This document shows positions 3,227 through 63,518 of a stretch of 64,000 nucleotides of DNA, piece after piece. The stretch is from Rhodanobacter sp. C01 (GTDB lineage Bacteria > Pseudomonadota > Gammaproteobacteria > Xanthomonadales > Rhodanobacteraceae): assembly GCF_002001045.1 (NCBI RefSeq), contig NZ_MUNR01000006.1, forward strand, positions 1 to 64,000, in the 5' to 3' direction. The notes beneath the pieces are model-generated. The model was not told the origin of the DNA. It did not search any database and saw only the letters and a program-made list of their open reading frames with translations. The position numbers and the translations under genes were made by a program. Positions within the stretch are counted from its first letter, which is position 1. Each line of letters starts with the position of its first letter.

Positions 3227-3377
3227 GGGTAGAGCCTCCAGAGTCTTAGGGATGCCGCGCCTACGCTCAGGCACGTCGAGTTTCATGATGCCCGGTGCAA
3301 TTGCCGCGATATTGATCGTGGTCAAGTCGTTGAGTAATCCCGTGCCGCGTCGAAAAAGAGGAAATGGTGATGATCAG

Positions 3378-8596: not shown

Positions 8597-8724
8597 GCGT
8601 CGATCGAGTCGGAGTGCTGTTACACACCGTTACAAACCGTTGCCGAGTCGAACTAATGCCGTTACGGGCAGCACCTAGAGTCACCCCCGTAGTCGAGATG
8701 AACTGCAGCTCGGGGGTACGTGTC

Positions 8725-9462
8725 ATGACATTGCTAGCAACAGACGTTCGCACCACACCGGTAGGCAAGCCTTACGCGTCCATGGCTTTGGCAGCCACCT
8801 GCAACGATCTGGGGATCGACATCGAAGCGATTCGCAAACACGTTCCGGTCCGCCGCTGCAAACATGCCGCCGGACAGGGCATTTATCACGCCGGCCAGCC
8901 GTTCCAGGCGATCTATCTGGTACATGCCGGTTCCTACAAGACCTGCGAACTGGCTGAGGATGGGCGTGAACAGGTGACCGGATTCCGCATGCGCGGCGAC
9001 CTCATCGGTGTGGAGTCGATTGGCTTGAACACCTATTCCAGCGATGCGATCGCCTTGGAAGACAGCGAAGCCTGGGAACTGCCATATCCGGCGGTGTTGC
9101 GGGCCTGTCTGCACATGCCGGAGCTGCAATCACGCCTGACTTCAGCATTGGCGGCGGAAATTCGTTGCGACCGTTCATGGATGCTGATGCTGGGCACGCT
9201 GGCCGCCGAACGCCGCGTTGCCGCCTTTCTGCTCGACGTGGCTGCACGCTATGCACGCCTGGGCTATAGCGCGAAGCATTTCATCTTGCGCATGAGCCGT
9301 ATCGACATGGCCAGTTTCCTGGCCCTGAAGCATGAAACCGTAAGCCGGGCACTGTCGCGCCTACACGATCAAAGCTACATCGACGTGCAGCGCCGCGAAG
9401 TACGGGTGTTGGATGTCGATGGGCTGCGCTCGATGGCCGGGATAAGCACCGCGCTGAACTGA
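8725..9462 (+). CDS. FNR/CRP-family transcription regulator without an FNR Cys cluster
   Basis: 245 residues from ATG 8725 (GGGGG upstream); a GTG at 8614 would add 37 residues of unlikely sequence. The length matches FNR (about 250). An N-terminal cyclic-nucleotide-binding-like beta barrel (about 35-125) is followed by a dimer helix and a C-terminal helix-turn-helix. The recognition helix KHETVSRALSRL has the E-x2-SR residues that in FNR read the TTGA half-site. The FNR Fe-S signature C-x2-C-x5-C is absent; scattered cysteines are at about 26, 45, 74, 128 and 148. What it senses is therefore open (a DNR-like haem/NO sensor or another ligand). It is a natural candidate reader of the dyads in this window. 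Confidence 0.88.
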   Translation: MTLLATDVRTTPVGKPYASMALAATCNDLGIDIEAIRKHVPVRRCKHAAGQGIYHAGQPFQAIYLVHAGSYKTCELAEDGREQVTGFRMRGDLIGVESIGLNTYSSDAIALEDSEAWELPYPAVLRACLHMPELQSRLTSALAAEIRCDRSWMLMLGTLAAERRVAAFLLDVAARYARLGYSAKHFILRMSRIDMASFLALKHETVSRALSRLHDQSYIDVQRREVRVLDVDGLRSMAGISTALN

Positions 9463-44922: not shown

Positions 44923-45752
44923 GCAGCATCCTGATCATTGCCAGGAAGGAGTTTCGCGACGACTTCCGCAATCGCTGGACGATTGCCGTGGCGTTGCTGT
45001 TCGCCGTGCTGGCCCTAAGCATTGCCTACTTTGGAGGCGCCGCGGCCGGCAAGATAGGCTTTACCTCGTTCGACGCGACTTTGGCCAGCCTGACCACGCT
45101 GGCGGCCTTCGTGATTCCGTTGATCGGCCTGTTGATCGCCTATGACATGGTGGTTGGCGAACAGGACAACGGCACTCTGTTACTGGTACTCAGCTACCCG
45201 ATATCGAGAGTCGAACTGGTCGCAGGCAAGTTCGTGGGTCACTGCTGTGCGCTGGCGACGGCTACCCTGGTGGGGTTCGGCGTGGCGGTGGTGATCATTC
45301 AGATCATGCAGCCCGAGGCGCGAACCTCAGGGGCCTGGCTCAACATGGGGAATTTCGTGCTCAGCGCTTCAATGCTCGGGGCAAGCTTCGTCGCATTGGC
45401 CAGCGTGATCAGCGTGATTACCCACGACAAGGCGCGTGCGGCAGGCTTGGCCCTGGTGACTTGGTTGGGCACGGTGATCATTTTTGACCTCTGCCTGCTG
45501 GCCATCCTGGTCTTCAGCGGCGGCAACGAGTGGGAGCAATCTCTCTTCCCACATTTGCTCTACCTGAATCCGATCGACGTCTTTCGGCTGATCAACCTGA
45601 CCACGCTCGGATCGGGCAGCGGCAACGAGCTGTTCATGGGAATGACGGCGACCCACGTGTATCGCCCTTGGGTGCTCTACCTGGTCATGTTGCTGTGGAT
45701 TGTCATTCCGTTTGAGCTGGCGCAGTTTCTGTTTCGTCGAAAGGAGGTATGA
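44919..45752 (+). CDS. nosY: NosY, membrane permease of the NosDFY complex
   Basis: 277 residues with six hydrophobic spans. The N-terminal IARKEFRDDFRNRW and the loop GEQDNGTLLLVLSYPISR are the hallmark of ABC-2 type NosY proteins. Starts on the nosF stop and ends with AAAGGAGGT, which serves as ribosome-binding site for nosL. It forms the transmembrane part that couples ATP hydrolysis by NosF to NosD. Confidence 0.94.
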   Translation: MSSILIIARKEFRDDFRNRWTIAVALLFAVLALSIAYFGGAAAGKIGFTSFDATLASLTTLAAFVIPLIGLLIAYDMVVGEQDNGTLLLVLSYPISRVELVAGKFVGHCCALATATLVGFGVAVVIIQIMQPEARTSGAWLNMGNFVLSASMLGASFVALASVISVITHDKARAAGLALVTWLGTVIIFDLCLLAILVFSGGNEWEQSLFPHLLYLNPIDVFRLINLTTLGSGSGNELFMGMTATHVYRPWVLYLVMLLWIVIPFELAQFLFRRKEV

Positions 45753-46483
45753 AAATGCACACGTCGCGCCCGCGCTGCAAGGGGAAGGGCGGGGCCCTCG
45801 AGTTCTTGTTGGTAGCCTTTGTTGTCCTTTCATTGGCTGCTTGTGAGAGCAGGCAAGCGCCAGCACCACAGGTCGCGGTGGACATCCATAAAGGCGATGT
45901 CTGCGCGGTCTGTGGGATGTACATCGAGGCCGGCCCCGGGCCGCGTGGGGAGGCCTATGTTCAGGGTGACAAGTTCCCCCTGAAATTCGGCTCAACCCGT
46001 GATTTCTTTGCCTATATCCTGCAACCGGAAAACATGACAAGGCTGCAGCATCTGCTGGTGCAAGACAGCGCCCGAATCAATTGGCAGCACCCCTCCAACG
46101 AGGCCAATACGTTTGTCGATGCGCGTAAGGCCTACTACGTGGCTTGGCAACCACTGAGTGGCTTGATGGGACCAACGTTTGCATCGTTTGCCTCCAGGCA
46201 GGATGCCGAGGCATTCGTTAGCAAGCACGGCGGAGAAGTATTGCGATTTCCCGACGTGACTCCCGAGCTGACCTCGATGCTTGGGTATAGCTGCCCGACT
46301 CAAGGCTCACCGGAATTTGCCTTGGCCAAAGCTTGTATTAGGCCACCTCATTCTGCTGATTCGCCGTGGGCTAAGCAGGAAGAACTCCCTGATCTGCTGC
46401 GCATGTCGAACTCTGCTCCGCATGAGATTGATTCAGGGCAGCGAAAGAGGCAGCTCCCTCTGCTTGACGGGAAATCGCACTGA
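45749..46483 (+). CDS. nosL: NosL, copper chaperone lipoprotein
   Basis: 244 residues. A lipoprotein signal ends in LSLAAC (Cys near 32). The copper-binding motif CAVCGMYIEAGPGPR is intact, followed by the NosL fold to about residue 180 (FGSTRDFFAYILQPENM, WQHPSNEANTFVDARKAYYV). The C-terminal 60 residues after the usual end are not typical and have no recognisable domain. NosL delivers Cu(I) to apo-NosZ. A second, frameshifted nosL lies at 63099. Confidence 0.93.
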   Translation: MKMHTSRPRCKGKGGALEFLLVAFVVLSLAACESRQAPAPQVAVDIHKGDVCAVCGMYIEAGPGPRGEAYVQGDKFPLKFGSTRDFFAYILQPENMTRLQHLLVQDSARINWQHPSNEANTFVDARKAYYVAWQPLSGLMGPTFASFASRQDAEAFVSKHGGEVLRFPDVTPELTSMLGYSCPTQGSPEFALAKACIRPPHSADSPWAKQEELPDLLRMSNSAPHEIDSGQRKRQLPLLDGKSH

Positions 46484-50750: not shown

Positions 50751-50999
50751 ATGTCGTTAGCCAACTTAGGCTTTGGCCGCTTCGGCAGGACCCTGTGCGA
50801 TCTGCTCATCTACGATGTGCAGGATGGGCGTGCCTATGATTCCTGTATGGCGCTGCCTGCTAGGCCTGCCGAGGCCTCCGCAGCCGAGGAGGAGCGCGTG
50901 CGCTTGCTGGCCGAGCTGGAATTGATCCATCAGCAACTCATAGATCATGCCAGTGATGAGAGTCTGGCCATTCCCCAGCCACCGCAGGCATCGCCGTGA
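50751..50999 (+). CDS. Small unknown protein before ubiD
   Basis: 82 residues from ATG 50751 (GAGAAAG upstream); a longer frame to 50670 is possible. The N terminus ([20 protein letters not shown]) is mildly hydrophobic and residues about 43-70 form a charged, probably helical stretch. Its stop overlaps the ubiD start (GTGA). Family not recognised. Confidence 0.5.
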
Positions 51000-52477
51000 G
51001 CTTTCACAACCTGCGTAGCTTTCTCTCGCGACTGGAGGGAGATCGACAGCTAATCCGTGTGAATGAAGCGATTGATCCGTACCTGGAATCAACCGCGCTT
51101 AGCGAGCGCGCACTACGCGAAGGTGGCCCGGCATTGTTGATGGAGCGGCCGCTGGGTGCTTCGCACGCGCTGCTTGGCAATCTGTTTGGCCATCGCTCAA
51201 GGATCGAGACAGCGTTGGCCGGAAGGCCATTAGCATCCCTGCGTGAATTGGGGCAGCTTCTGGCTTCGATCAAGGAGCCGCGCTGGCCATCCAGTCTGCG
51301 CCAAGCCCTGGCGACATGGCCGGAGCTGGCGCAACTAGCCCACGTCGCACCTCAGTACGTGCATGAGGCTGCCTTCGAGTACGAAGGTGTAGAAGGCGGC
51401 GACATCGACCTCTCGCGCCTGCCAATCCAGCATTGCTGGCCCGGGGATGCAGGGAAGCTGATCACGTTCGGCCTAGTGGTCACCCGTGGCACGCGCAAGG
51501 CACGGCAGAATGTGGCGATCTACCGGCAGCAGGCGATCGGAACGAATCGAGTAATCATGCGTTGGCTGCCGCATCGTGGGGGTGCGCTGGACTATGCCGA
51601 CTGGGTTGCCTCGCATCCGGAGCGCCCATTCCCTGTGCTGGTGGCGGTCGGGGCTGATCCGGCGACAATGCTGGCGGCGGTGGCGCCGGTGCCAGACACG
51701 TTGTCTGAATTCGAATTCGCCGGTTTGCTACGTGGCCAGCGCACCCGCGTATGGCGCAGCGAGCTGACCGGCCTTGATGCGCCGGCCGGTGCCGAAATAC
51801 TGTTGGAGGGTTTCATCTACCCGGGCGACACCGCGTTGGAGGGGCCGTTCGGTGACCACACGGGCTACTACAACGCGCAAGATCACTTTCCCGTATTCAC
51901 GATCGAACGCATGCGCTTGCGCCGGGACGCGATCTACCATGGTAGTTATATGGGACGCGCGCCGTACGATGAGCCATCTGTGCTATCGATGGCGTTGAAC
52001 GATATCTTCGTGCCGATTCTGCAGAAGGTATTTCCGGAGATCGTCGATTTCTTCCTGCCGCCGGAAGCATGTTCCTATCGCATCGCGGTGGTCAGCATCC
52101 GCAAACAGTACGCTGGTCACGCACGGCGAGTGATGATGGGCGTGTGGTCCTATCTGCGCCAGTTTACGTATACCAAGTTCGTGATCATCACTGACGACGA
52201 CATCGACGTACGCGACTGGTCGGCCGTGATCTGGGCAATTTCCACCCGTGTCGATCCAGCACGCGACACGATGCTGGTCGAGAATACTCCGATCGACTAT
52301 CTGGATTTTTCGAGCCCTTCCGCCGGCATCGGCTCGAAACTCGGTCTCGATGCGACCAACAAATGGCCGTCCGAAACGGTGCGTACATGGAGTAGGCCGA
52401 TCGTGCCGGATGCCGCCGTTGCACAGCGCATTGACGTGATGTGGGCCGCAATGCAGGCCACCCGCGTGGCCGGTTAG
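50996..52477 (+). CDS. ubiD: UbiD-family prenyl-FMN decarboxylase
   Basis: 493 residues, the length of E. coli UbiD (497). Blocks: [43 protein letters not shown], the [12 protein letters not shown] active-site region and DDDIDVRDW. UbiD removes the carboxyl group of polyprenyl-4-hydroxybenzoate using prenylated FMN. UbiX, which makes that cofactor, is not in the window. The step needs no oxygen, and the gene is placed with ubiU, ubiV and ubiT. Starts with GTG on the previous stop. Confidence 0.9.
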
Positions 52478-52682
52478 GCGTCGCAGGCTTCCAGCTCAAG
52501 GGCTCGCAGTGGGCGTAGCGGTCCGCGAGCTCGACCTGCATTGTGCGGTAGGGTGCTTCCACTGGCCATGGCGGAGTGCCAACCATGCCCACTGTGAAAG
52601 TACCGACTGTGCCGAACCGCAGCGACGTCGGCGAGCATGAGTTTCACCAAGCCAACTACCCTATCTGATGACCATGCCCGAT

Positions 52683-52696
52683 TTGACGCACATCAA
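52683..52696. promoter_or_regulatory. FNR/ANR-type box TTGACgcacATCAA
   Basis: In the 279-bp gap between ubiD and ubiU, centred about 67 bp upstream of the ubiU start. E. coli ubiUV is known to be activated by FNR, and this site would do the same here. Confidence 0.8.
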
Positions 52697-52756
52697 GGCA
52701 ACTGCTACCTGCACGCGCCATGATGCGGTCTGTTCGATTTCCCAAGGTGCGTGCGT

Positions 52757-53755
52757 ATGCAACTGGTCTGTCCCGCAGGCAATTTGCCGGCATTGCAGGC
52801 GGCAATTGATGCCGGTGCGGATGCGGTCTACGCGGGCTTTCGCGATCAGACCAACGCGCGTGCCTTCCCTGGTCTCAATTTTAGTGACGAAGAGCTGAGT
52901 GCAGGGATCGACTACGCGCATGCGCGTAGTCGCAAGGTCTATCTGGCGCTCAACACCTATCCAGATAGCGTACGGCTGGCGCACTGGCAGGCGGCTGTGG
53001 ACAAGGCGGCGGAATTTGGTTGCGATGCGATCATTGCGGCTGAGATGGCGGTGCTCGACTACGCCACACGTACCCATCCAGGGCTGGCGCGACATCTATC
53101 GGTGCAGGGTTCGGCTACCACTGCGCCCGCGTTGCACTACATGTACGAGCGCTTTGGCATCAGTCGTGCCGTATTGCCACGGGTACTTTCTATCCAGCAG
53201 GTGGAGCGACTGTGCATGAATTCGCCGGTGCCTTTGGAAGTCTTCGGATTCGGCAGTCTATGCATCATGGTTGAGGGGCGCTGTCAGCTGTCGAGCTATG
53301 TCACTGGTGCTTCGCCGAACCGTCACGGCGTGTGTTCGCCGGCCAGCTTTGTACGCTGGGAGGAGGAGCAAGACGGCCGACGCAGTGTCCGCCTGAACAA
53401 GGTGCTGATTGACCGATTTGAGCCCGCGGAGCCAGCGGGCTACCCCACAGTGTGCAAAGGACGCTTTGACGTCGGCGGTGAGGTATTTCACGCACTTGAG
53501 GAGCCGACCAGTCTCAATACCTTGGAGTTGCTTCCTCGGCTCGCTCAGGCAGGGGTGACGGCTCTGAAGATCGAGGGCCGCCAACGCGGTGTGGCCTACG
53601 TGAGTTCGGTCACTCGCACTTGGCGTGATGCACTGGATCGTTACCACAGATCACCGCAGGACTGGCAGCTGCAAGCGGACTGGCGACGCTCGCTGTCAGC
53701 ACATGCCGAGGGTCACCAGACCACGCTCGGCCCCTATCACCGTCATTGGCACTGA
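52757..53755 (+). CDS. ubiU: UbiU, O2-independent ubiquinone hydroxylation factor
   Basis: 332 residues from ATG 52757 (AAGG upstream; GTG 52751 also possible), matching E. coli UbiU (331). U32 peptidase-like fold starting [20 protein letters not shown]. The four [4Fe-4S] cysteines are in place: [10 protein letters not shown], then HGVC, then TVC. UbiU with UbiV carries out the ring hydroxylations of ubiquinone with prephenate as oxygen donor when O2 is absent. ubiV follows after 4 bp. Confidence 0.95.
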
Positions 53756-53759
53756 ACCG

Positions 53760-54650
53760 ATGAATACGATGAAACTAAGCTTGGGACCATTACAGTATTT
53801 TTGGCCCCGCGAGCGCACTTTGGCCTTTTACCGTGAGGCAGCGCAATGGCCCATTGATATCATCTATCTCGGTGAGACCGTATGTAGCAAACGGCGAGAG
53901 ATGAGCACTGGGGGCTGGATCGCACTGGCTGCGGAACTTAGCGAGAGCGGTAAGCAAGTCGTGTTGTCATCATTGGCACTGATCGAAGCCGAATCTGAAC
54001 TCGGCGCACTAAAACGGTTGGTCAGTGACGGTAACTGCTGGATCGAGGCGAACGATCTCTCCGCAGTGCAGTTGTGCCGCGAGCGTGGCGTGCCCTTCGT
54101 TGCCGGTCCATCGCTCAATGTCTACAACCATCGAGCACTCGCATTACTGATGGAAGATGGTCTGCATCGCTGGGTTCCTGGCGTGGAGCAGGGCGAAGTG
54201 CTGTTGCGTGAGCTTCGCGCGGCGATGCTCGCTGAGAACCTCACGATGCCGGAACTTGAGGTGATAGCGTTTGGTCGATTGCCACTGGCTTACTCAGCGC
54301 GCTGCTTCACCGCGCGTGCCCTAGATGTTGGCAAAGATCAATGCGATTTTCGTTGTATTGAATACCCCGATGGCATGCCGCTGGCCACTCGCGAGGGTAG
54401 ACCGTTCCTACGCATCAACGGCATCCAGATCCAGGGCGAGGAAGTCACCGATCTCGGTCCCCAGTTGCCTGCACTTCGCGAACTTGGCGTCGACGTGCTT
54501 CGTTTATATCCGCAAGTTAGTGGCATGGCCGATGTCGTGGCGCACTTTCACCTTGCGCGTCGCTCGCCAGTGGCGCCGCCGCGGATCGGTATACGCAACG
54601 GCTACTGGCACGGCGAGCCGGGAATGCAGATGCTCCACACCGCTGTCTGA
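53760..54650 (+). CDS. ubiV: UbiV, O2-independent ubiquinone hydroxylation factor
   Basis: 296 residues from ATG 53760 (ATG 53769 also possible), near E. coli UbiV (292). Starts [20 protein letters not shown]. The Fe-S cysteines are conserved: ETVC near residue 41, and C-x12-C-x3-C in [21 protein letters not shown]. It is the heterodimer partner of UbiU. The end of the gene forms a hairpin with the downstream gap, where the operon meets the converging haemolysin-like gene. Confidence 0.95.
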
Positions 54651-55574: not shown

Positions 55575-56783
55575 TCAAACCCGCGCAAATACCAAGCTAG
55601 CGTTGGTGCCACCGAAGCCGAAGCTGTTGGACATCACGGTGTTCAACGTCGCCTGACGCGTCTCTCGCAGGATGGGAAATCCCTCGACGCGCGGATCAAG
55701 CTCGACGATGTTGGCGGACCCTGCCATAAAGCCATCCCTGAGCATCAATAGGCTGTAAATTGCCTCATGCACGCTCGCCGCGCCGAGCGAGTGCCCCGTC
55801 AAAGCCTTGGTTGAGGAGATTGCCGGTACGGATTCTCCGAATACCTCGCGGACAGCCCTCAATTCCACAATGTCGCCCATCTGGGTGGCGGTGCCGTGGG
55901 TGTTGAGGTAGTCGATTGGCAACGTCACGCCCTGCATTGCCATCCTCATGCAACGCACTGCGCCTTCGCCTGATGGCGACACCATATCGGCTCCGTCCGA
56001 GGTCACCCCATAGCCGACCAGTTCGGCATGGATGCATGCTCCCCGCGCCTTTGCATGCTCGTATTCCTCCAGCACCAGCATGCCGCCACCGCTGGCGATG
56101 ACGAAGCCGTCGCGACCCGCATCGTAGGGGCGCGATGCGGTTTGCGGCTCGTCGTTATAGTTACTGGACAAAGCGCCCATCGCATCGAACTGCGCGGTCA
56201 TACCCCAGTTCAGTTCTTCGCCGCCACCAGCAAACATTACATCCTGCGCACCATGACGGATCAGGTCTGCTGCCGCGCCAATGCAATGGCCCGAGGTGGC
56301 ACATGCCGCGGCGATCGAGTAGCTCAGGCCGAGAATGCCGAAAGCGGTGGCGAGTGTTGCTGACACTGTGGAACACATCGTGCGGGGTACCATGTATGGA
56401 CCGATCTTACGTACACCCTTCTCGCGCAGAAGGTCAGCAGTCTCAATCTGCCACTGTGCTGAGCCACCGCCGGAGCCGGCGATCACACCGCTGCGCGGAT
56501 GGCATATCTGTTCGATGGCAAGACCAGCATCGGCAATGGCCGCTCGCATCGCCACGTACGCATTGGCCGCTGCATCACCCATGAAGCGTTTCAACTTACG
56601 GTCTATCACCGCATTGAGATCGATCTGCGGCACGCCGGCGATTTGGCTGCGTAAGCCGCGAACGGCATATTCTGGAACGGCGCGAATTCCGCTGCGTGCT
56701 TCGCTCAGTGCGCAAGAGACAGCATCCGCGGCGTTGCCAAGGCAAGACACGATGCCCATGCCGGTTACCACTACGCGGCGCAT
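55575..56783 (-). CDS. fabB: 3-oxoacyl-ACP synthase I
   Basis: 402 residues. The catalytic triad is complete: Cys in [14 protein letters not shown], His in [14 protein letters not shown], His in [15 protein letters not shown]. It elongates the cis-3-decenoyl-ACP made by FabA and so keeps the double bond in long-chain unsaturated fatty acids, without O2. It overlaps fabA by one base, a classic fabA-fabB pair. Confidence 0.95.
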
Positions 56784-57304
56784 CAGAAGCCCTCCGTCGA
56801 CTGGAACAGGCCAACTCGCATGTCGGTGGCTACGTATATAAGCCGGTCATCGACATACGTTTTGCCATCTGCAATCACCATGGACAGCTTTCCACGTAGC
56901 ACTCGGCGGATATCGATCTCATAGCGGATTAACTTTGCACTCGGCAATACCTGTCCGGAAAACTTCACTTGGCCCACGCCAAGCGCCCGACCGCGACCGG
57001 GCTCACCCAGCCATGGCAGGAAGAACCCACTGAGTTGCCACATCGCGTCCAAGCCAAGACAGCCTGGCATCACAGGGTCACCGTCGAAATGGCAGCCGAA
57101 AAACCACAGGTCAGGCCGGACATCCAGCTCTGCAAGGATGACGCCCTTGTCGGAAGCGCCACCATGTTCATCAATACGGGTGATGCGGTCGAACATCAGC
57201 ATGGGTGGCGACGGTAGACGAGCGTTGCCGGGACCAAAAAATTCACCGCGGGCACAGGCAAGCAGTTGAGCGTAGTCGAACGAAGAAGGTCGGTTCATGG
57301 CCAT
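56783..57304 (-). CDS. fabA: 3-hydroxydecanoyl-ACP dehydratase/isomerase
   Basis: 173 residues, the FabA length. The active site is [20 protein letters not shown], with the catalytic His and Asp as in E. coli FabA, and the FSGQVLP motif follows. It introduces the cis double bond in the C10 intermediate, the oxygen-independent route to unsaturated fatty acids. An imperfect FNR-type site is about 58 bp upstream at 57355. Confidence 0.95.
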
Positions 57305-57354
57305 GTTTGCAGAGGAAGACCTAACCAGTCTGCGAGGCTTTCCACCCGGGCACC

Positions 57355-57368
57355 ATGACGCTGGTCAA
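57355..57368. promoter_or_regulatory. Imperfect FNR/ANR-type box, minus strand TTGACcagcGTCAT
   Basis: Plus-strand ATGACgctgGTCAA has one mismatch to the TTGAC half. It is centred about 58 bp upstream of fabA, in the only sizeable gap between nadB and fabA. Confidence 0.45.
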
Positions 57369-57422
57369 GGGGGTGCAAACATACGCCAGCGTCTGTTTTA
57401 GGCGTGCGGCACAATCGCGCAG

Positions 57423-58874
57423 TCAAGCTGGCATGACGGCATCGGTGCGATAGTGAGCCCCGAGACTGTGAGTGCGCGATAGGGCTGCCTCAAGCACCCG
57501 TTGTGCGAGGCGAGCCTGCCAACCTTCATCGGCCCAAGCCAGACATGCCTTCAGCGCGTTCTGCAAGCCAGTTGCCTCACGTTCCGGTCCTGCGGTCTGC
57601 CATAGCAACATGCGCAGAGCTTCCAGCCGCGACTGTGGCAGGCTCGCGGCACGCCCAACCCAGCGATATGGACCGCTGCTTGCTGCTCGCAAATCCATGG
57701 TGGCCAACATCAAACCCAGGCGTTGACCACACAGCACGCCTTCGAGCAGCGAGTTGCTGGCCAGTCGGTTAGCGCCATGCACGCCGCTGCAGGCTACCTC
57801 ACCGACGGCATACAAACCGGGCACACCTGTACGGCCATCTGCATCTGCCGCAATTCCGCCCATATGGAAATGAGCCACTGGCGTCACCGGGATCGGCTGC
57901 AGTCGTGGATCGATGCCTTCGGCAAGACATGCCGCCAAGACGGTGGGAAAGCGCCGCTCCCACTCACCATCCACTTCGCGTGCATCCAACCATGCGGAGC
58001 CGTCATCGCGGCATGCCTGCCACACGCGACGGGCCACCACATCGCGCGGTGCCAAATCACCCAGCGGATGTTGATCGGCCATCAACAGCTGACCGGTAGC
58101 GCCGTACAGACGCGCGCCGGCACCGCGCAGGGCCTCGGTGATCAGCGGCAAACAATGGACGCCCGCAACGTTAAGCGCGGTCGGATGAAATTGAACGAAC
58201 TCGAGGTCGCGAGTTCGCGCGCCGGCGGACATGCCTAGCGCCAAACCGCTGCCGTCTGCACCGGGAGGATTACTGGTGCGCGCATACAACGCACCGATAC
58301 CACCGGTGGCCAGCACAACTGCGGCGGCCTCCATTTCATGCCGATGGCCGCGCGTATCGTGGGTACACACGCCGCAGACAGCATCGCCGCGCAGCAGTAG
58401 TCCATCCACGTCCATATCGCCGCGCCACTGGATATGGGATGACTGTTGCGCGCGTTGACGTAACGCCTGAACTAGCGCCACACCACTGGCATCACCGCCT
58501 GCATGCACGATCCGTGCGGCAAGATGTCCGCCTTCGCGGCCAAGGTGCAGATGTCCGTCCGCATCTCGGTCGAATGCAACGCCCTGCGCCTGCAGCCAGC
58601 CGATGGCCGCCGGTGCCTGCGAGCAAAGCCACTGCACCATCGCAGCATTATTGTGGTGCGCCCCGGCGGTGAGTGTGTCGAGGGCATGCATGGCGGGGCT
58701 GTCACTTGGATCAAGAGCGGCAGCGATACCGCCTTGCGCCAGCGCGCTGGCCGTGCCGCTGCCATCATGTGCGCGGCAAAGCAGGCGTACCGGCGTTGGC
58801 GCCAACGCCAGCGCTGTGGTCAGTCCGGCTACACCACCACCCACCACCACTACAGGTGGCCTTGCGCGCGTCAT
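57423..58874 (-). CDS. nadB: L-aspartate oxidase
   Basis: 483 residues, a flavoprotein of the succinate dehydrogenase/fumarate reductase family. FAD motif VVVGGGVAGLTTALAL, ALAQGGIAAALDPSD, HLGREGGH, EFVQFHPTAL and LYAVGEVACSGVHGANRLASNSLLEG are all present. It oxidises aspartate to iminoaspartate for NAD synthesis and can use fumarate in place of O2. The start overlaps the nadA stop (ATGA). nadC is not in the window. Confidence 0.94.
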   Translation of the reverse strand: MTRARPPVVVVGGGVAGLTTALALAPTPVRLLCRAHDGSGTASALAQGGIAAALDPSDSPAMHALDTLTAGAHHNNAAMVQWLCSQAPAAIGWLQAQGVAFDRDADGHLHLGREGGHLAARIVHAGGDASGVALVQALRQRAQQSSHIQWRGDMDVDGLLLRGDAVCGVCTHDTRGHRHEMEAAAVVLATGGIGALYARTSNPPGADGSGLALGMSAGARTRDLEFVQFHPTALNVAGVHCLPLITEALRGAGARLYGATGQLLMADQHPLGDLAPRDVVARRVWQACRDDGSAWLDAREVDGEWERRFPTVLAACLAEGIDPRLQPIPVTPVAHFHMGGIAADADGRTGVPGLYAVGEVACSGVHGANRLASNSLLEGVLCGQRLGLMLATMDLRAASSGPYRWVGRAASLPQSRLEALRMLLWQTAGPEREATGLQNALKACLAWADEGWQARLAQRVLEAALSRTHSLGAHYRTDAVMPA

Positions 58875-59896
58875 ATCGTTTCCTGCCGGCCTATCGCAAG
58901 CATCCGCATCAGTGCCGTCCTGGCCCGTACAGCGATGTCAGTGGGTACCCTGACCTCATGCCGCAGGTCGCGCAGACAGGTGTAGATTTTCTGCAGGGTG
59001 ATTCGCTGCATGTGCGGGCAGAGGTTGCATGGCTTGATGAATTCGGTGGCTGGGAACTGTGCACGCAAGTTGTCCGCCATTGAACATTCAGTGATCAGTG
59101 CCACGCGTTCCGGCCTTTCCTTAGCCAGCCAGCGAACCATCGCGCTGGTAGAGCCGACGAAATCGGCCTCAGCCCATACCTCTGGGGGGCACTCGGGGTG
59201 TGCTATCAGTTTGGCGTGGAAGTATTCGCGTGCGTGCCGAGCCTGTTGTGCAGTAAATTTTTCGTGTACCTCGCAGCGGCCGGTCCACAGCAACAGCTCC
59301 ACCTTGGTCTTGCTCGCGACGTAATTTCCAAGGAAGCGGTCGGGCAGGAAGATCACCTGGTTCGTTCCCATCGCCTCTACTACTTCAACCGCATTGGCCG
59401 AAGTGCAGCAGGCATCAGACTCAGCCTTCACTTCAGCCGAAGTGTTGACATAGCTAACTACAGGTACTCCAGGATATTTCGCTCGCAAGGCGCGCACGTC
59501 AGCAGCGGTGATCGACGCAGCTAGTGAACAACCGGCCTCTAGATCAGGTATCAAGACCGTCTTTTCCGGGGCCAGGATCTTTGCGCTCTCAGCCATGAAA
59601 TGGACTCCGCACAGCACAATCAGGCGGCCCTCACAGTCCGCCGCCGCCTGTGCCAGTGCGAGCGAGTCGCCGGTGACGTCTGCCACGCCGTGAAAGATCT
59701 CAGCTGACTGATAGCTGTGCGCCATGATCACGGCGCCACGCTGTTTCTTCAGCCGGTTGATAGCCTCGATCCAGGGTAGGTGAAATGGCCATTCAAGGCA
59801 GGGCACCAAGTGTTCGAGGCGTGCACCGAGTTCGGCATATTCATGCTCAAGTGCGTCACGCCAGATAGGCAATGGCAACGTGTCGGGGTCGGTCAT
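58871..59896 (-). CDS. nadA: Quinolinate synthase
   Basis: 341 residues. The three [4Fe-4S] cysteine regions are seen (VLCGVHFMAES, ESDACCTSANAVEVV, KPCNLCPHMQRITL). It has the pattern AHSYQSAEIFHGVADVTGDS near residue 58. NadA condenses iminoaspartate with dihydroxyacetone phosphate to quinolinate; its cluster is oxygen-sensitive, in keeping with this neighbourhood. Upstream in the same direction is the UbiT fusion gene with a 48-bp gap. Confidence 0.94.
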   Translation of the reverse strand: MTDPDTLPLPIWRDALEHEYAELGARLEHLVPCLEWPFHLPWIEAINRLKKQRGAVIMAHSYQSAEIFHGVADVTGDSLALAQAAADCEGRLIVLCGVHFMAESAKILAPEKTVLIPDLEAGCSLAASITAADVRALRAKYPGVPVVSYVNTSAEVKAESDACCTSANAVEVVEAMGTNQVIFLPDRFLGNYVASKTKVELLLWTGRCEVHEKFTAQQARHAREYFHAKLIAHPECPPEVWAEADFVGSTSAMVRWLAKERPERVALITECSMADNLRAQFPATEFIKPCNLCPHMQRITLQKIYTCLRDLRHEVRVPTDIAVRARTALMRMLAIGRQETI

Positions 59897-59944
59897 GGCG
59901 ATCCGCAGAGGGAATGTAGGAGAAACACGTGCCGCAGCAACCTG

Positions 59945-60805
59945 TCAGGCTGCCTCACGTCGATGCGCCGCCCGGGCGGCGCGCGTGAAGCGGGCGCTCC
60001 GGTTCAGCAAAATGCGCAGGCCGAGCGGTATCGCCTCCCACGGTAGCCGGTCGAGCATATTGCGCGCCGTAAGACCAAGCTCCGTGTCGCCAGTGAGTAC
60101 CAGCCGGCGTTGGAAGAAGAGCGTGTCGGCGTCTTCCAGCCGGCAGGCCAGTAACAACAAGTCCGCGACGCTACCGCGCACACTGGCCTCTGGCGCGTCA
60201 TTGGTCACACGCAAACGTCCTTCACGTAACTCCAGCACCCAGCGGATACGCAGGTCGCTCACCTCGATGGCTAGTCGTCGTCCAAGCATGAAGTCGAGTG
60301 CGCCCACGCGCAAAGGAGTGGCAAGTACATGCGCCATCCCTGCCTCGAGTAAAGTGTGCTGCCAGCGCGATGGCGCGACATGCAGCAGCGGAGCTATCCT
60401 CTGTGGTGGCGGCAACAGGCGCAGCAGACGTGGAGCAAGGGAGGATAAATGTGGGGGGCTAGGCATAGTGGACGCCATTATTGAAGCAGAGTCGCGAGCA
60501 CCGCTCTGATCCACGTCAACAATCAATCCTTGCTGGCGACAAGCATCGCCGATGGCCAGGTCCAGTAGATCCTCTGCGGTGGACGATGGCAGATTGAGTC
60601 GCGCTGCTAGTTTCTGCGCACGGTCGCGTACCCGACGCTCCCGCGCCGGATCGCGCAGTGGTACTCCCGCACGTGGCTTGAGAGCCGCCACCACGTGCAC
60701 CATCCGACGGCGTGCGGCCAGCAGAAGAATTAAGCCGTCATCGACACGATCAATCACGGCGCGCGCCCGCGACAGGGCGAAATGCTCAGGAAGATGTCGA
60801 TACAT
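59945..60805 (-). CDS. ubiT: UbiT fused to an AroQ-type chorismate mutase-like domain
   Basis: 286 residues. Residues about 10-92 read like an AroQ (type II) chorismate mutase: LSRARAVIDRVDDGLILLLA, RRRMVHVVAALK, the DPARERRVRDRA block and a final helix ending ACRQQGL; the conserved R, K, R-E and Q positions of that fold are visible. Residues about 135-270 are an SCP2-type lipid-binding domain with DTLFFQRRLVLTGDTELGL and NMLDRLPW, the UbiT signature. E. coli UbiT is only the SCP2 part (about 174 residues). UbiT is required for anaerobic ubiquinone synthesis with UbiU and UbiV. The joined domain could act on or bind chorismate, which precedes both 4-hydroxybenzoate and prephenate; catalytic activity is inference. 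Confidence 0.85.
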   Translation of the reverse strand: MYRHLPEHFALSRARAVIDRVDDGLILLLAARRRMVHVVAALKPRAGVPLRDPARERRVRDRAQKLAARLNLPSSTAEDLLDLAIGDACRQQGLIVDVDQSGARDSASIMASTMPSPPHLSSLAPRLLRLLPPPQRIAPLLHVAPSRWQHTLLEAGMAHVLATPLRVGALDFMLGRRLAIEVSDLRIRWVLELREGRLRVTNDAPEASVRGSVADLLLLACRLEDADTLFFQRRLVLTGDTELGLTARNMLDRLPWEAIPLGLRILLNRSARFTRAARAAHRREAA

Positions 60806-61202
60806 CGACCGTCTCCCCGGTGGCGGCCGCTGGCAGCGCTAACAGCGCTCGTGCTGCCGGAAGCACCTTGTCCAGATAGACGCGTCGTGCTTCGGTGGCA
60901 TCGAAATCGGCATGCTGGCGTTTCTTTACGCCATAGTCGGACAGAACTAGATGTGTGTCGGCCACCACGCCCGCGTTGGTCAGACAGGCCGAGGCACATT
61001 TTAGTATGCAGCCGTCGAGCGCGAGGATGCGTCGCCCGCTTTGTGCGGTGCGGACCAGTCCAGTCACGCCGCCACCAACGCCGGCGATGCACGACATCTC
61101 CGCGACGCCTGCGCGGTCCAGTTGCAGTGCGAGGTGATTGGCCATCTGTGCCGCACTGGAACAGCCAGAGCAGGAATAGACGAGCGGCGGCCTACCAGTC
61201 AT
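60786..61202 (-). CDS. DGC-domain putative zinc-binding protein
   Basis: 138 residues. Cysteines occur as YSCSGCSSAAQ at the N terminus, SCIAGVGGG in the middle, and LDGCILKCASACL, the Asp-Gly-Cys motif that names the DGC family. The role of the family is not established; members often accompany anaerobic or selenium/sulfur genes. It overlaps its neighbours on both sides (NnrS-like upstream, UbiT fusion downstream), so it is embedded in the operon. Confidence 0.85.
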   Translation of the reverse strand: MTGRPPLVYSCSGCSSAAQMANHLALQLDRAGVAEMSCIAGVGGGVTGLVRTAQSGRRILALDGCILKCASACLTNAGVVADTHLVLSDYGVKKRQHADFDATEARRVYLDKVLPAARALLALPAAATGETVDVSTSS

Positions 61203-62455
61203 GGATGATCCTCCATATTAAGCAGAAAGCGGTTTGCGCGTCGGCGCACGCCATCAAGAGTTAGCCAAAGGCAAAGCCATGCCAGTAGCATCGCCAGCCC
61301 GGCTGAACGCGCCAGCCAAAGGCGTGGCCACAACACAGCCGCTGGTAGCAGAAATGCCTGCGGCAGTTGCGCCAGCAGCACACGGGCCTTGTCCAATTCA
61401 GGCAGAAGCCGTTGTATGCCGGGTATCCGCACGCCACGACTGACACGACGGTGTAAGGCGATCCAGCCGAGAAAGGCCACAATCTCCAGCAACATACCGT
61501 TCACCAGCAATGGCAGGGCGATACACAGCCCCAATGCGCCAGCCAATAATTCGTTCCGTGTATCCCAGAGAAGGATAAGCGCGGTAATCGCTAGTGCGCC
61601 CAGTCCGGCCTGCCAACTCCAAAGCAAGGGTCCTCGCCGTGACCGCGGCGCCCGCCATTGCAGCCACAGTGCAGAGCAAGTAAACAGCAGTGCATGGATA
61701 GCTAGTGCTAAGCGTAGCCATGAGGCATCGTCGCGTAGCAGCCGTAGCCACGCCCCAGCGAGCAACGCCAACAGCAGGCTCATCAGCCATGCAGCTTGTG
61801 CCGCCGCCGGTACCACGGAAGTTCCCTGGAACATGGGCATCACTACGCGCGCCACGCTGGCGATCAGCAGTACGGTCCACCCCAGTAATCCCCAGCTTGC
61901 ATGCACGTCGACCAGCGCAGCTAGCGGTATCTCCAACCAGCCACCAAGACCCAGTGCCAGGCAACCGCCAAGCAATGCTGTAGACAAAGCAAACACCAGT
62001 GATACGCCAATACCTGCCCGCAAAAGACGTTGGCCAACAGCCGAGAGCGTGCCCGGCAAAGTCATCGCGCATAGCAGCACGAATGTTGTCGGAAGCAGCA
62101 CGCCAGCAGCCAGAAGGCCGAGGCGCCAACCAGCAAGCAGTCCCGTCATCAGCAGGGCTAGGCCGAGATTGAACAGTACGTGCAACCAAGGCCCGAGCGA
62201 TGTACTGCCACGCACGTGTACGCCAGCCGCTGCCGGCAGGAATTGCAACACGCTGCCGAACATCGCATTGCCGAGAACACCGAGAGTAAATGCGTGCACC
62301 AGCGCTAGAGTTTCCGGCAGCCAACGCGTGCGCAGAAGTGCATCACCGTCGACGACTAGAAGTATGCCTGCGAACATTCCCCACAGCGGTACGCTGAGCA
62401 GGAAACGGCGCGGCAACGCCGTCGGCGGTGCCTTCTCAAGCGCCAGCTGTACCAT
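61199..62455 (-). CDS. NnrS-like multi-span membrane protein
   Basis: 418 residues with about twelve hydrophobic spans. Conserved-looking His residues occur in spans: LVHAFTLGVLGNAMFGSVLQ and VDVHASWGLLGWTVLL, in a pattern like that of NnrS and haem-copper oxidase subunit I relatives. NnrS is a haem- and copper-containing membrane protein linked with NO stress in denitrifiers. I cannot confirm the family, but the DUF2249 neighbour supports a denitrification or NO context. Overlaps both adjacent genes. Confidence 0.65.
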   Translation of the reverse strand: MVQLALEKAPPTALPRRFLLSVPLWGMFAGILLVVDGDALLRTRWLPETLALVHAFTLGVLGNAMFGSVLQFLPAAAGVHVRGSTSLGPWLHVLFNLGLALLMTGLLAGWRLGLLAAGVLLPTTFVLLCAMTLPGTLSAVGQRLLRAGIGVSLVFALSTALLGGCLALGLGGWLEIPLAALVDVHASWGLLGWTVLLIASVARVVMPMFQGTSVVPAAAQAAWLMSLLLALLAGAWLRLLRDDASWLRLALAIHALLFTCSALWLQWRAPRSRRGPLLWSWQAGLGALAITALILLWDTRNELLAGALGLCIALPLLVNGMLLEIVAFLGWIALHRRVSRGVRIPGIQRLLPELDKARVLLAQLPQAFLLPAAVLWPRLWLARSAGLAMLLAWLCLWLTLDGVRRRANRFLLNMEDHP

Positions 62456-62720
62456 CGTGATCGGGTCGGGAAATCAACACACGCATGCCACCGGAAGCCA
62501 GTGCGTACACTCTGGTCTGAAGGCCGCGTGCGTCCAGAACTTCAAGCAGTGGCGTTGGCCACAGTGGGGTGAGTACACACACGCTCTCCCCCGGCTCCAA
62601 CGCGTCGGAAAATTCGAGTGCACGTTGCATCGGTTCGGGGCAGGGACGCCCTCTCAGGTCGTATTCAGGCCACTTCACGTCAGTGGCAACCTGCTGAATG
62701 GGACGGCTAACGTGATGCAT
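62436..62720 (-). CDS. DUF2249/TusA-like protein
   Basis: 94 residues. The motif YDLRGRPCPEPMQRALEFSD and LTPLWPTPLLEVLDARG fits DUF2249, a small fold related to the sulfur carrier TusA, with the CPEPM Cys present. Such proteins are often encoded beside NO reductase and other denitrification genes. First gene of the minus-strand operon that probably runs on to nadA and nadB; a near-perfect FNR-type box lies about 42 bp upstream. Confidence 0.82.
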   Translation of the reverse strand: MHHVSRPIQQVATDVKWPEYDLRGRPCPEPMQRALEFSDALEPGESVCVLTPLWPTPLLEVLDARGLQTRVYALASGGMRVLISRPDHDGTAGA

Positions 62721-62755
62721 AATCGGTATTGCAGCACACGTATCACGTTGACGCG

Positions 62756-62769
62756 CTGATCTGGATCAA
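62756..62769. promoter_or_regulatory. Near-perfect FNR/ANR-type box CTGATctggATCAA
   Basis: One mismatch in the outermost base of the left half. It is centred about 42 bp upstream of the DUF2249 start and is the likely promoter element of the minus-strand operon with ubiT and nadAB. Confidence 0.62.
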
Positions 62770-62969
62770 ACGACATCCAATTGTCGTGTCGACGAGACGT
62801 TCGACCTTCGGTCAGAGAGCGTTATCCAGTACTCCCTAACCACGCCATTCGGCTCAGTGCGAAACTTTGTAGTATCAATCGGGGCTGACGATTTGCGTAT
62901 TTGGGCCCAGCGAGATCCAGGAGCCTTGGGCGCCTGTGACACTTTGCCATTCGTGCCGGTGCGTGCCAG

Positions 62970-62983
62970 TTGACAAAGGTCAA
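62970..62983. promoter_or_regulatory. FNR/ANR-type box TTGACaaagGTCAA
   Basis: Perfect dyad about 122 bp upstream of the GTG of the second nosL copy at 63099, facing the nosL2-tatA-tatB genes. Confidence 0.72.
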
Positions 62984-63098
62984 TATGATTGATTACGTCA
63001 AGGCCTAGCATGAGCGCCATGGAAGGCTTGTCTTGGCAGGTTCACGTGATTCTCGGCGACGATAAGCGTTGACCTTCCATTTTTCGCCACAGGGAAGT

Positions 63099-63518
63099 GT
63101 GAAGTTCGACGTGAAGGCCGCTATTGCAAGATGTACGAGCCTCGCGTTCGTCTTCCTTCTCGTCGGCTGTGGGGACCATCAATCCCTACCACCCCAGAGG
63201 CCCGTGGCCATTTTGAAAGATGACGTTTGCGAGATATGCGGAATGTATATCGAAGCATCATCCGGACCTCGCAGTGAGGCCTGTTTGAAGAGCAGCGATA
63301 AACCATTGAAGTTTGATTCGACGCGATATTTCCCTGCCTATGTGCTACGGCCGGGAAATGAACTGCGACTGGAGCACTTTTTTTGCAGGAGAGTGAGGGT
63401 ATTGACTGGAATCATCCGTCGAACGCCACCGAGGGGAAAAGTGATGCAGCTGCCAACGGCCTGTAGCGGGTTCCATATCACGTGGATAAAGTTACAGACC
63501 GCGCTGTCATGTTGCTAA
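63099..63518 (+). pseudogene. nosL: Second nosL, frameshifted
   Basis: From GTG 63099 a lipoprotein signal ends FLLVGC, and the copper motif CEICGMYIEASSGPR is intact. Similarity to the first NosL (45749) holds to LRLEHFF. After the run of seven T at 63378-63384 the frame is lost; the next frame reads LQESEGIDWNHPSNAT, the equivalent of VQDSARINWQHPSNEA in the intact copy, and then a TAG follows. One indel in the T-run explains the break, so this is a recent-looking pseudogene (or a sequencing error in a homopolymer). Confidence 0.85.

Follow-up and report, generated by a model that had tools for sequence, protein, structure and literature searches.

Why should a chorismate mutase (CM) be joined to UbiT, an accessory factor of O2-independent ubiquinone synthesis? 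The question is raised by one open reading frame in a 64,000-nucleotide stretch of DNA from Rhodanobacter sp. C01 (GCF_002001045.1, NZ_MUNR01000006.1, positions 1 to 64,000; hereafter the window), which an earlier note, made from the letters of the DNA, had read as a CM-like domain fused to UbiT. According to part of a 2024 review (PMC11574389), which cites a PNAS paper on the point, the hydroxyl groups of anaerobically made ubiquinone come from prephenate, in line with the premise of that note that prephenate is the oxygen source for the UbiU-UbiV reaction. A passage of the same review still calls direct use of prephenate by UbiUV undemonstrated, and in part of a 2023 paper the role of prephenate in anaerobic ubiquinone synthesis is still a hypothesis (PMC10470549). 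A U32 hydroxylase of E. coli, TrhP, requires prephenate (PMC6599085, in part).

The frame and its parts are as follows.

59945..60805, minus strand: CM-UbiT fusion open reading frame, 286 aa, ATG start (ORF list and Pfam/NCBIfam profiles)
60530..60775, minus strand: chorismate mutase domain, aa 11-92 (CM_2 profile, alignment and model)
60425..60529, minus strand: linker, aa 93-127, coding and probably also a promoter
59948..60424, minus strand: UbiT/SCP2 domain, aa 128-286 (Pfam, NCBIfam and model)
60813..60818, minus strand: GGGGAG, resembling a ribosome-binding site, 5' of the full-length start

The N-terminal half matched Pfam CM_2 (PF01817; aa 15-91, E = 3.6e-14, 53.2 bits against a cut-off of 27), while the C-terminal half matched Pfam SCP2 (aa 169-252, 49.9 bits against 21.3) and exceeded the NCBIfam UbiT threshold (NF047962, 125.1 bits against 46.9), with an SCP2/UbiT span of aa 142-257. 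Each half thus passed a curated cut-off in the domain search, and the earlier observation of a CM joined in frame to UbiT is confirmed at the level of sequence. The CM half scored below the cut-off of every NCBIfam CM model listed (PRK09239.1, PRK06285.1, CM_mono_cladeE and others; best, 48.2 bits against 120) and is therefore not filed in any of those subfamilies. In Rhodanobacter sp. C03, B04 and C05 the CM domain is 100% identical to that of the window.

The genes and boxes around the fusion that bear on its role are listed below.

60786..61202, minus strand: DGC-domain protein, overlapping the CM-UbiT start (Pfam)
61199..62455, minus strand: 418-aa protein, next upstream gene, no Pfam match, kept in 34 of 57 fusion loci
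62436..62720, minus strand: DUF2249 protein, first gene of the presumed operon (Pfam)
62756..62769, minus strand: Fnr-type box TTGATCCAGATCAG, 36 nt ahead of the DUF2249 start (box scan)
58871..59896, minus strand: NadA, next gene downstream (Pfam and NCBIfam)
50996..52477, plus strand: UbiD-family decarboxylase (TIGR00148, 464.5 bits, cut-off 244.85; under the NF008175 cut-off)
52683..52696, strand not assigned: Fnr-type box 54 nt ahead of ubiU (box scan)
52751..53755, plus strand: UbiU (NF047963, 527.7 bits, cut-off 440)
53769..54650, plus strand: UbiV (NF047965, 351.4 bits, cut-off 275)

On one strand the order is DUF2249, 418-aa protein, DGC-domain protein and CM-UbiT, followed by NadA, NadB, FabA and FabB; the UbiD-family, UbiU and UbiV genes (50996-54650) lie on the opposite strand. 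An NnrS-like identity for the 418-aa protein was considered and is unsupported, the protein having no Pfam match. NadA, NadB, FabA and FabB occupy 55575-59896 in the window, and the 57 fusion loci described below include 41 with NadA, 36 with FabA and 35 with FabB. The whole window holds 20 Fnr-type box positions (36 matches on both strands against 0.97 expected) and looks, from its sequence, like an anaerobic or denitrification regulon. Example boxes lie at 3312, 8583, 23443 and 47337, and a Crp/Fnr-family regulator is encoded at 8614-9462 with a box just ahead of the gene. An open reading frame at 63069-63518 looks broken and is similar, by eye, to the beginning of the NosL-like protein encoded at 45749-46483.

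The fusion is not unique to this genome. A GTDB genome scan with a CM profile, which favours finding fusions because fused CMs served as the profile, returned 58 loci; in 57 of these a single open frame runs through CM and UbiT, and the remaining locus (L139) is truncated at a contig end. The linkers of the 57 fusions come in 19 different lengths, every one of them in frame, which together with the 57 single-frame loci rules out a chance or misassembled fusion. One match was returned twice in the complete genome of Dyella jiangningensis (L099 and L100, CP007444.1), near both ends of the record, as a duplication or an assembly artefact. A lineage is named in 47 of the 57 fusion records, all of them Lysobacterales genera or families, and the other ten state only Proteobacteria or Pseudomonadota. 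The genera are Rhodanobacter, Frateuria, Dyella, Oleiagrimonas, Dokdonella, Mizugakiibacter, Stenotrophomonas, Lysobacter, Thermomonas, Pseudoxanthomonas, Xanthomonas and Arenimonas, with further records at the level of Rhodanobacteraceae, Lysobacteraceae and Lysobacterales; a taxonomy look-up confirmed the placement of seven genera in Lysobacterales, and the remaining ones we take to belong there.

Among 100 relatives, UbiT exceeded the cut-off in 38 and was fused to CM in 29, the nine UbiT-only genomes being three of the same family (G001, G008 and G051) and six from four other families of the order. A phylum sample contained UbiT in 153 of 397 genomes, 148 of these outside the order. The CM_2 search covered 80 of these 148 (every one of the 60 belonging to the class, plus 20 of the 88 others, picked for long frames), and no CM was found within 50 kb of UbiT in these 80 genomes when positions were compared by eye; the closest pair on the same contig, in G370, was separated by about 57 kb. 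The fused CMs formed one clade of 61 rows (support 98/87) in a tree built from 81 short rows, in keeping with a single origin of the fusion.

The distribution of the fusion follows that of the hydroxylase. UbiU or UbiV was present in the DNA around 45 of the 57 fusions, on the opposite strand in 44, and 11 of the remaining 12 genomes encode UbiU at another place, so that UbiU or UbiV accompanies 56 of the 57 (exception, L088). UbiU exceeded its cut-off in 40 of the 100 relatives. These comprise the nine UbiT-only genomes, four genomes in which UbiT was not detected, and 27 of the 29 with the fusion; the two fusion genomes lacking UbiU are drafts (82% and 91% completeness). Among 32 chosen relatives, the fusion was found in 15 of 18 genomes with UbiU and in none of 14 without, one of which is G058 (see below). 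The source genome has two CM_2 matches, CM-UbiT itself and a 363-aa frame that also holds a prephenate dehydratase (PheA). That the fused CM might be the sole CM of G012 and G045 was considered and dropped, as the whole of pheA is absent there (no prephenate dehydratase match), through an assembly gap or loss.

Genomes that lack a complete fusion bear on how tightly its halves are bound together. G001 (L030), G008 (L031) and G051 (L028) keep UbiT, UbiU and UbiV and have lost the CM half, which is therefore dispensable; in the first two the linker with its Fnr-type box still stands ahead of UbiT, and G051 has part of the 418-aa protein from upstream joined to its UbiT. These three relatives are what would be expected if the CM half just raised the general anaerobic supply of prephenate, or of phenylalanine and tyrosine, with the link to UbiT an accident of gene order and UbiT acting alone from an internal start. 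The likely internal promoter for free UbiT (below) fits the same explanation, as does the need of other U32 enzymes, such as TrhP, for prephenate (PMC6599085, in part). An accident of gene order, however, sits poorly with a reading frame kept through 19 linker lengths, with the tracking of UbiU by the fusion across the order (27 of 29 among the 100 relatives) and with G058, which has neither UbiT nor UbiU and keeps just a CM stub between the upstream operon and FabA (L082, 7549-7887) in which Lys39 is replaced by Arg. We consider general supply unlikely, though it is the alternative that deserves most attention.

The linker between the two halves carries three further elements.

60506..60519, minus strand: Fnr-type box TTGACGTGGATCAG (box scan and DNA alignment)
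60477..60482, minus strand: -10-like hexamer AATAAT
60464..60466, minus strand: proposed internal start codon, Met114, for a free UbiT of 173 aa

At the DNA level the linker pattern is the palindrome TTGAY-N4-RTCAR or a near form. It was found in 61 of 71 fusion rows and was missing from ten, the 71 rows representing 61 different CM stretches with species that overlap because two collections were used; the row counts here and below are not independent because the rows are related. All 61 boxed rows have a hexamer 37-42 nt from the box start with A38 (position 2) and T42 (position 6) invariant, and 60 of the 61 have an in-frame ATG at offset 50 or 53. The anchor of a codon test was the protein motif D-x-[DG]-[QH], which 55 of the 71 rows contain, with the expectation taken from codon use in the same genes. 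The codon before D ended in T in 55 of 55 cases (5.8 expected) while encoding ten kinds of residue (V, I, P, L, S, D, A, T, N or F), the D/G codon ended in T in 55 of 55 (17.6 expected), and the linker Gln was CAA in 36 of 53, though CAG is the usual codon. A purely peptide-level motif (D-x-D/G-Q) is ruled out by the fixed third bases and the ten residue kinds before D; since the third codon bases are fixed while the residue varies, it is the DNA and not the peptide that is conserved.

In sequence terms, these elements are typical of a promoter of the Fnr type whose leader is very short or missing. The linker box of the window, which matches the palindrome, has its centre 30.5 nt from the hexamer start, one more than the 29.5 nt that the spacing rule of a class II promoter gives for a -41.5 site. 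A scan of 59900-63000 for generic sigma-70 promoters missed the linker site; its rule of a -35 element and a 16-18 nt spacer does not extend to activator-dependent promoters. As box, hexamer and in-frame ATG are conserved in the DNA, the linker probably doubles as a promoter from which free UbiT (173 aa) is expressed anaerobically, and not every UbiT would then carry a CM. The same promoter might also serve NadA, NadB, FabA and FabB, because NadA, FabA and FabB accompany many fusion loci. As far as the searched literature goes, a linker with this dual use is undescribed, and it does not appear in the earlier note.

If free UbiT were the sole anaerobic product, the upstream CM reading would be incidental and the fused product rare or unimportant, a reading in line with the fixed spacing of linker box, hexamer and ATG and with the two relatives that retain box and UbiT without CM (G001 and G008). 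Against it stand the purifying selection on the CM half reported below, the Fnr-type box that in the window precedes the upstream operon, and the named loci without the inner box. In four of the eight such loci (in Pseudoxanthomonas, Xanthomonas chitinilytica and, for two, Lysobacter) a box precedes the CM region, and thus the whole fusion, by 83-119 nt, which would put the whole fusion under anaerobic control; the other four have none. The figures for comparison are 227 of 2282 background windows and, among loci possessing the inner box, 11 of 49. That free UbiT is the only product of consequence therefore seems to us improbable.

Whether the CM half is still an enzyme was judged from its residues, fold and rate of change. 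With the list and numbering of E. coli CM active-site residues that we assume (R11, R28, K39, D48, R51, E52 and Q88), the alignment places R15, R32, K43, D52, R55, E56 and Q92 of the window protein at the corresponding positions. All seven are thus present, and the outcome that the earlier note had named as fatal to its reading, an N-terminal domain lacking its active-site residues, was not found. Across the 71 fusion rows, R11, R28, K39, R51 and E52 are kept in 71, Q88 in 70 and D48 in 68, with Asn in the three exceptions. Of the 82 columns of the CM half only 15 are kept in at least 95% of rows, and all seven active-site residues are among these (hypergeometric, 1.7e-6). The pattern used in the profile search for the named loci ended two residues before R28, so none of the seven was imposed by the search. 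All 29 pairs gave a dN/dS below 1 for the CM half (0.00-0.52 for the ten with the lowest synonymous change; up to 0.96 in distant pairs, which are near saturation), indicating that purifying selection acts on it.

A single-chain AlphaFold2 model of modest quality (mean pLDDT, 69.2; pTM, 0.42; linker and domain placing not predicted) has the three AroQ helices (residues 5-46, 53-69 and 74-91), and its CM half superposes on E. coli CM (1ecm) with a TM score by target of 0.86 and an rmsd of 1.2 over about 84 columns. The top structure match for the whole model was UbiJ-SCP2 (6h6p), which is also closest for the second half, with E. coli CM closest for the first half. The assignment of the two halves, to AroQ-type CM by profile, active-site residues and fold and to UbiT/SCP2 by two curated cut-offs, therefore stands as first proposed. 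A degenerate CM is ruled out by the residue conservation in the fusion rows, and the CM half is probably a catalytically competent mutase. That the CM fold now serves as a dimerisation or chorismate-sensing module of UbiT and is an enzyme no longer is very improbable, for although AroQ CMs are dimers, the position of E. coli CM Ser84 is Ala in the window protein and in 67 of the 71 rows, and the CM half falls under the NCBIfam CM cut-offs, the seven catalytic positions are far better kept than the rest of the CM half.

The reading we favour, and consider probable, is that CM-UbiT is a bifunctional protein providing a dedicated, anaerobically expressed CM that gives prephenate to UbiUV. The N-terminal AroQ CM would convert chorismate to prephenate, and the C-terminal UbiT domain would hold or organise prenylated intermediates for UbiU-UbiV, which would take oxygen from prephenate. 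CM-UbiT would be a second CM beside that of PheA, expressed anaerobically from the Fnr-type box ahead of the upstream operon. The PheA enzyme is feedback-controlled by phenylalanine, and a second CM tied to UbiT may raise prephenate for UbiUV without drawing on it. The linker would once have been the ubiT promoter and would have retained its box, -10-like element and start codon; since these elements are still there, free 173-aa UbiT is likely made too.

The fusion, the intact active site, the single clade, the co-occurrence with UbiU and the DNA-level conservation of the box can be read directly in the genomes, while CM activity, promoter activity and a supply of prephenate to UbiUV are what these features suggest. 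Least certain is a direct hand-over, rather than simply more prephenate. The functional idea of the earlier note, that a protein making prephenate where the lipid is held would feed the hydroxylation, is plausible and better supported than before: an intact AroQ CM is joined to UbiT, nearly always in the company of UbiU. Speaking against a strict need for the CM, G001, G008 and G051 lost the CM half, nine of the 38 UbiT genomes among the 100 relatives are unfused, and the 80 genomes searched outside the order have no CM near UbiT. A fuller account can be offered tentatively, as one that may well be wrong in part: an anaerobically induced CM-UbiT would make prephenate at the UbiU-UbiV lipid scaffold, an Fnr-driven, nearly leaderless transcript from the linker would add free UbiT, and the fusion would have arisen once in Lysobacterales by read-through of the old ubiT promoter, whose signal was kept while turning coding.

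A CM joined to an accessory factor of prephenate-dependent hydroxylation lends the idea of an organic oxygen donor independent support from evolution, and for in vitro studies of UbiUV the construct already exists in CM-UbiT. The linker would be a clear case of regulatory DNA turned coding with its signal still under selection, and the two-product gene is directly testable. The searched literature, outside which Ferizhendi 2024 (PNAS) falls, held no paper with both chorismate mutase and UbiT; searches for UbiT, UbiU and UbiV together with chorismate mutase, and for chorismate mutase with fusion and SCP2, likewise found none, nor was a CM-UbiT fusion found in the main text of PMC11707229 or PMC13386864. 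The earlier note, which knew of no description of this fusion with such a function, agrees with the literature searched.

Among known systems, E. coli UbiT (YhbT) shares with the Rhodanobacter protein, which is over the NCBIfam UbiT cut-off, the SCP2 domain and the company of UbiU and UbiV, but lacks its CM half; E. coli UbiT is 174 aa long (PMC6747719, in part), against 173 aa for the free form proposed here. PheA (CM-prephenate dehydratase) and TyrA (CM-prephenate dehydrogenase) also join an N-terminal AroQ CM to a prephenate-handling partner, whereas here the partner is a lipid-binding accessory factor and the fused CMs form their own clade. The UbiT-UbiU fusion of Zymomonas mobilis is, as here, a gene fusion within the O2-independent pathway (PMC6747719, in part), though it has no CM and its partner is the hydroxylase. 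Lastly, the Fnr-dependent ubiT and ubiU promoters described in parts of two studies (PMC10470549, PMC11707229) have, as in the window, an Fnr-type box ahead of ubiT and of ubiU; unlike in those known ubiT promoters, the ubiT box in Rhodanobacter lies inside an open reading frame.
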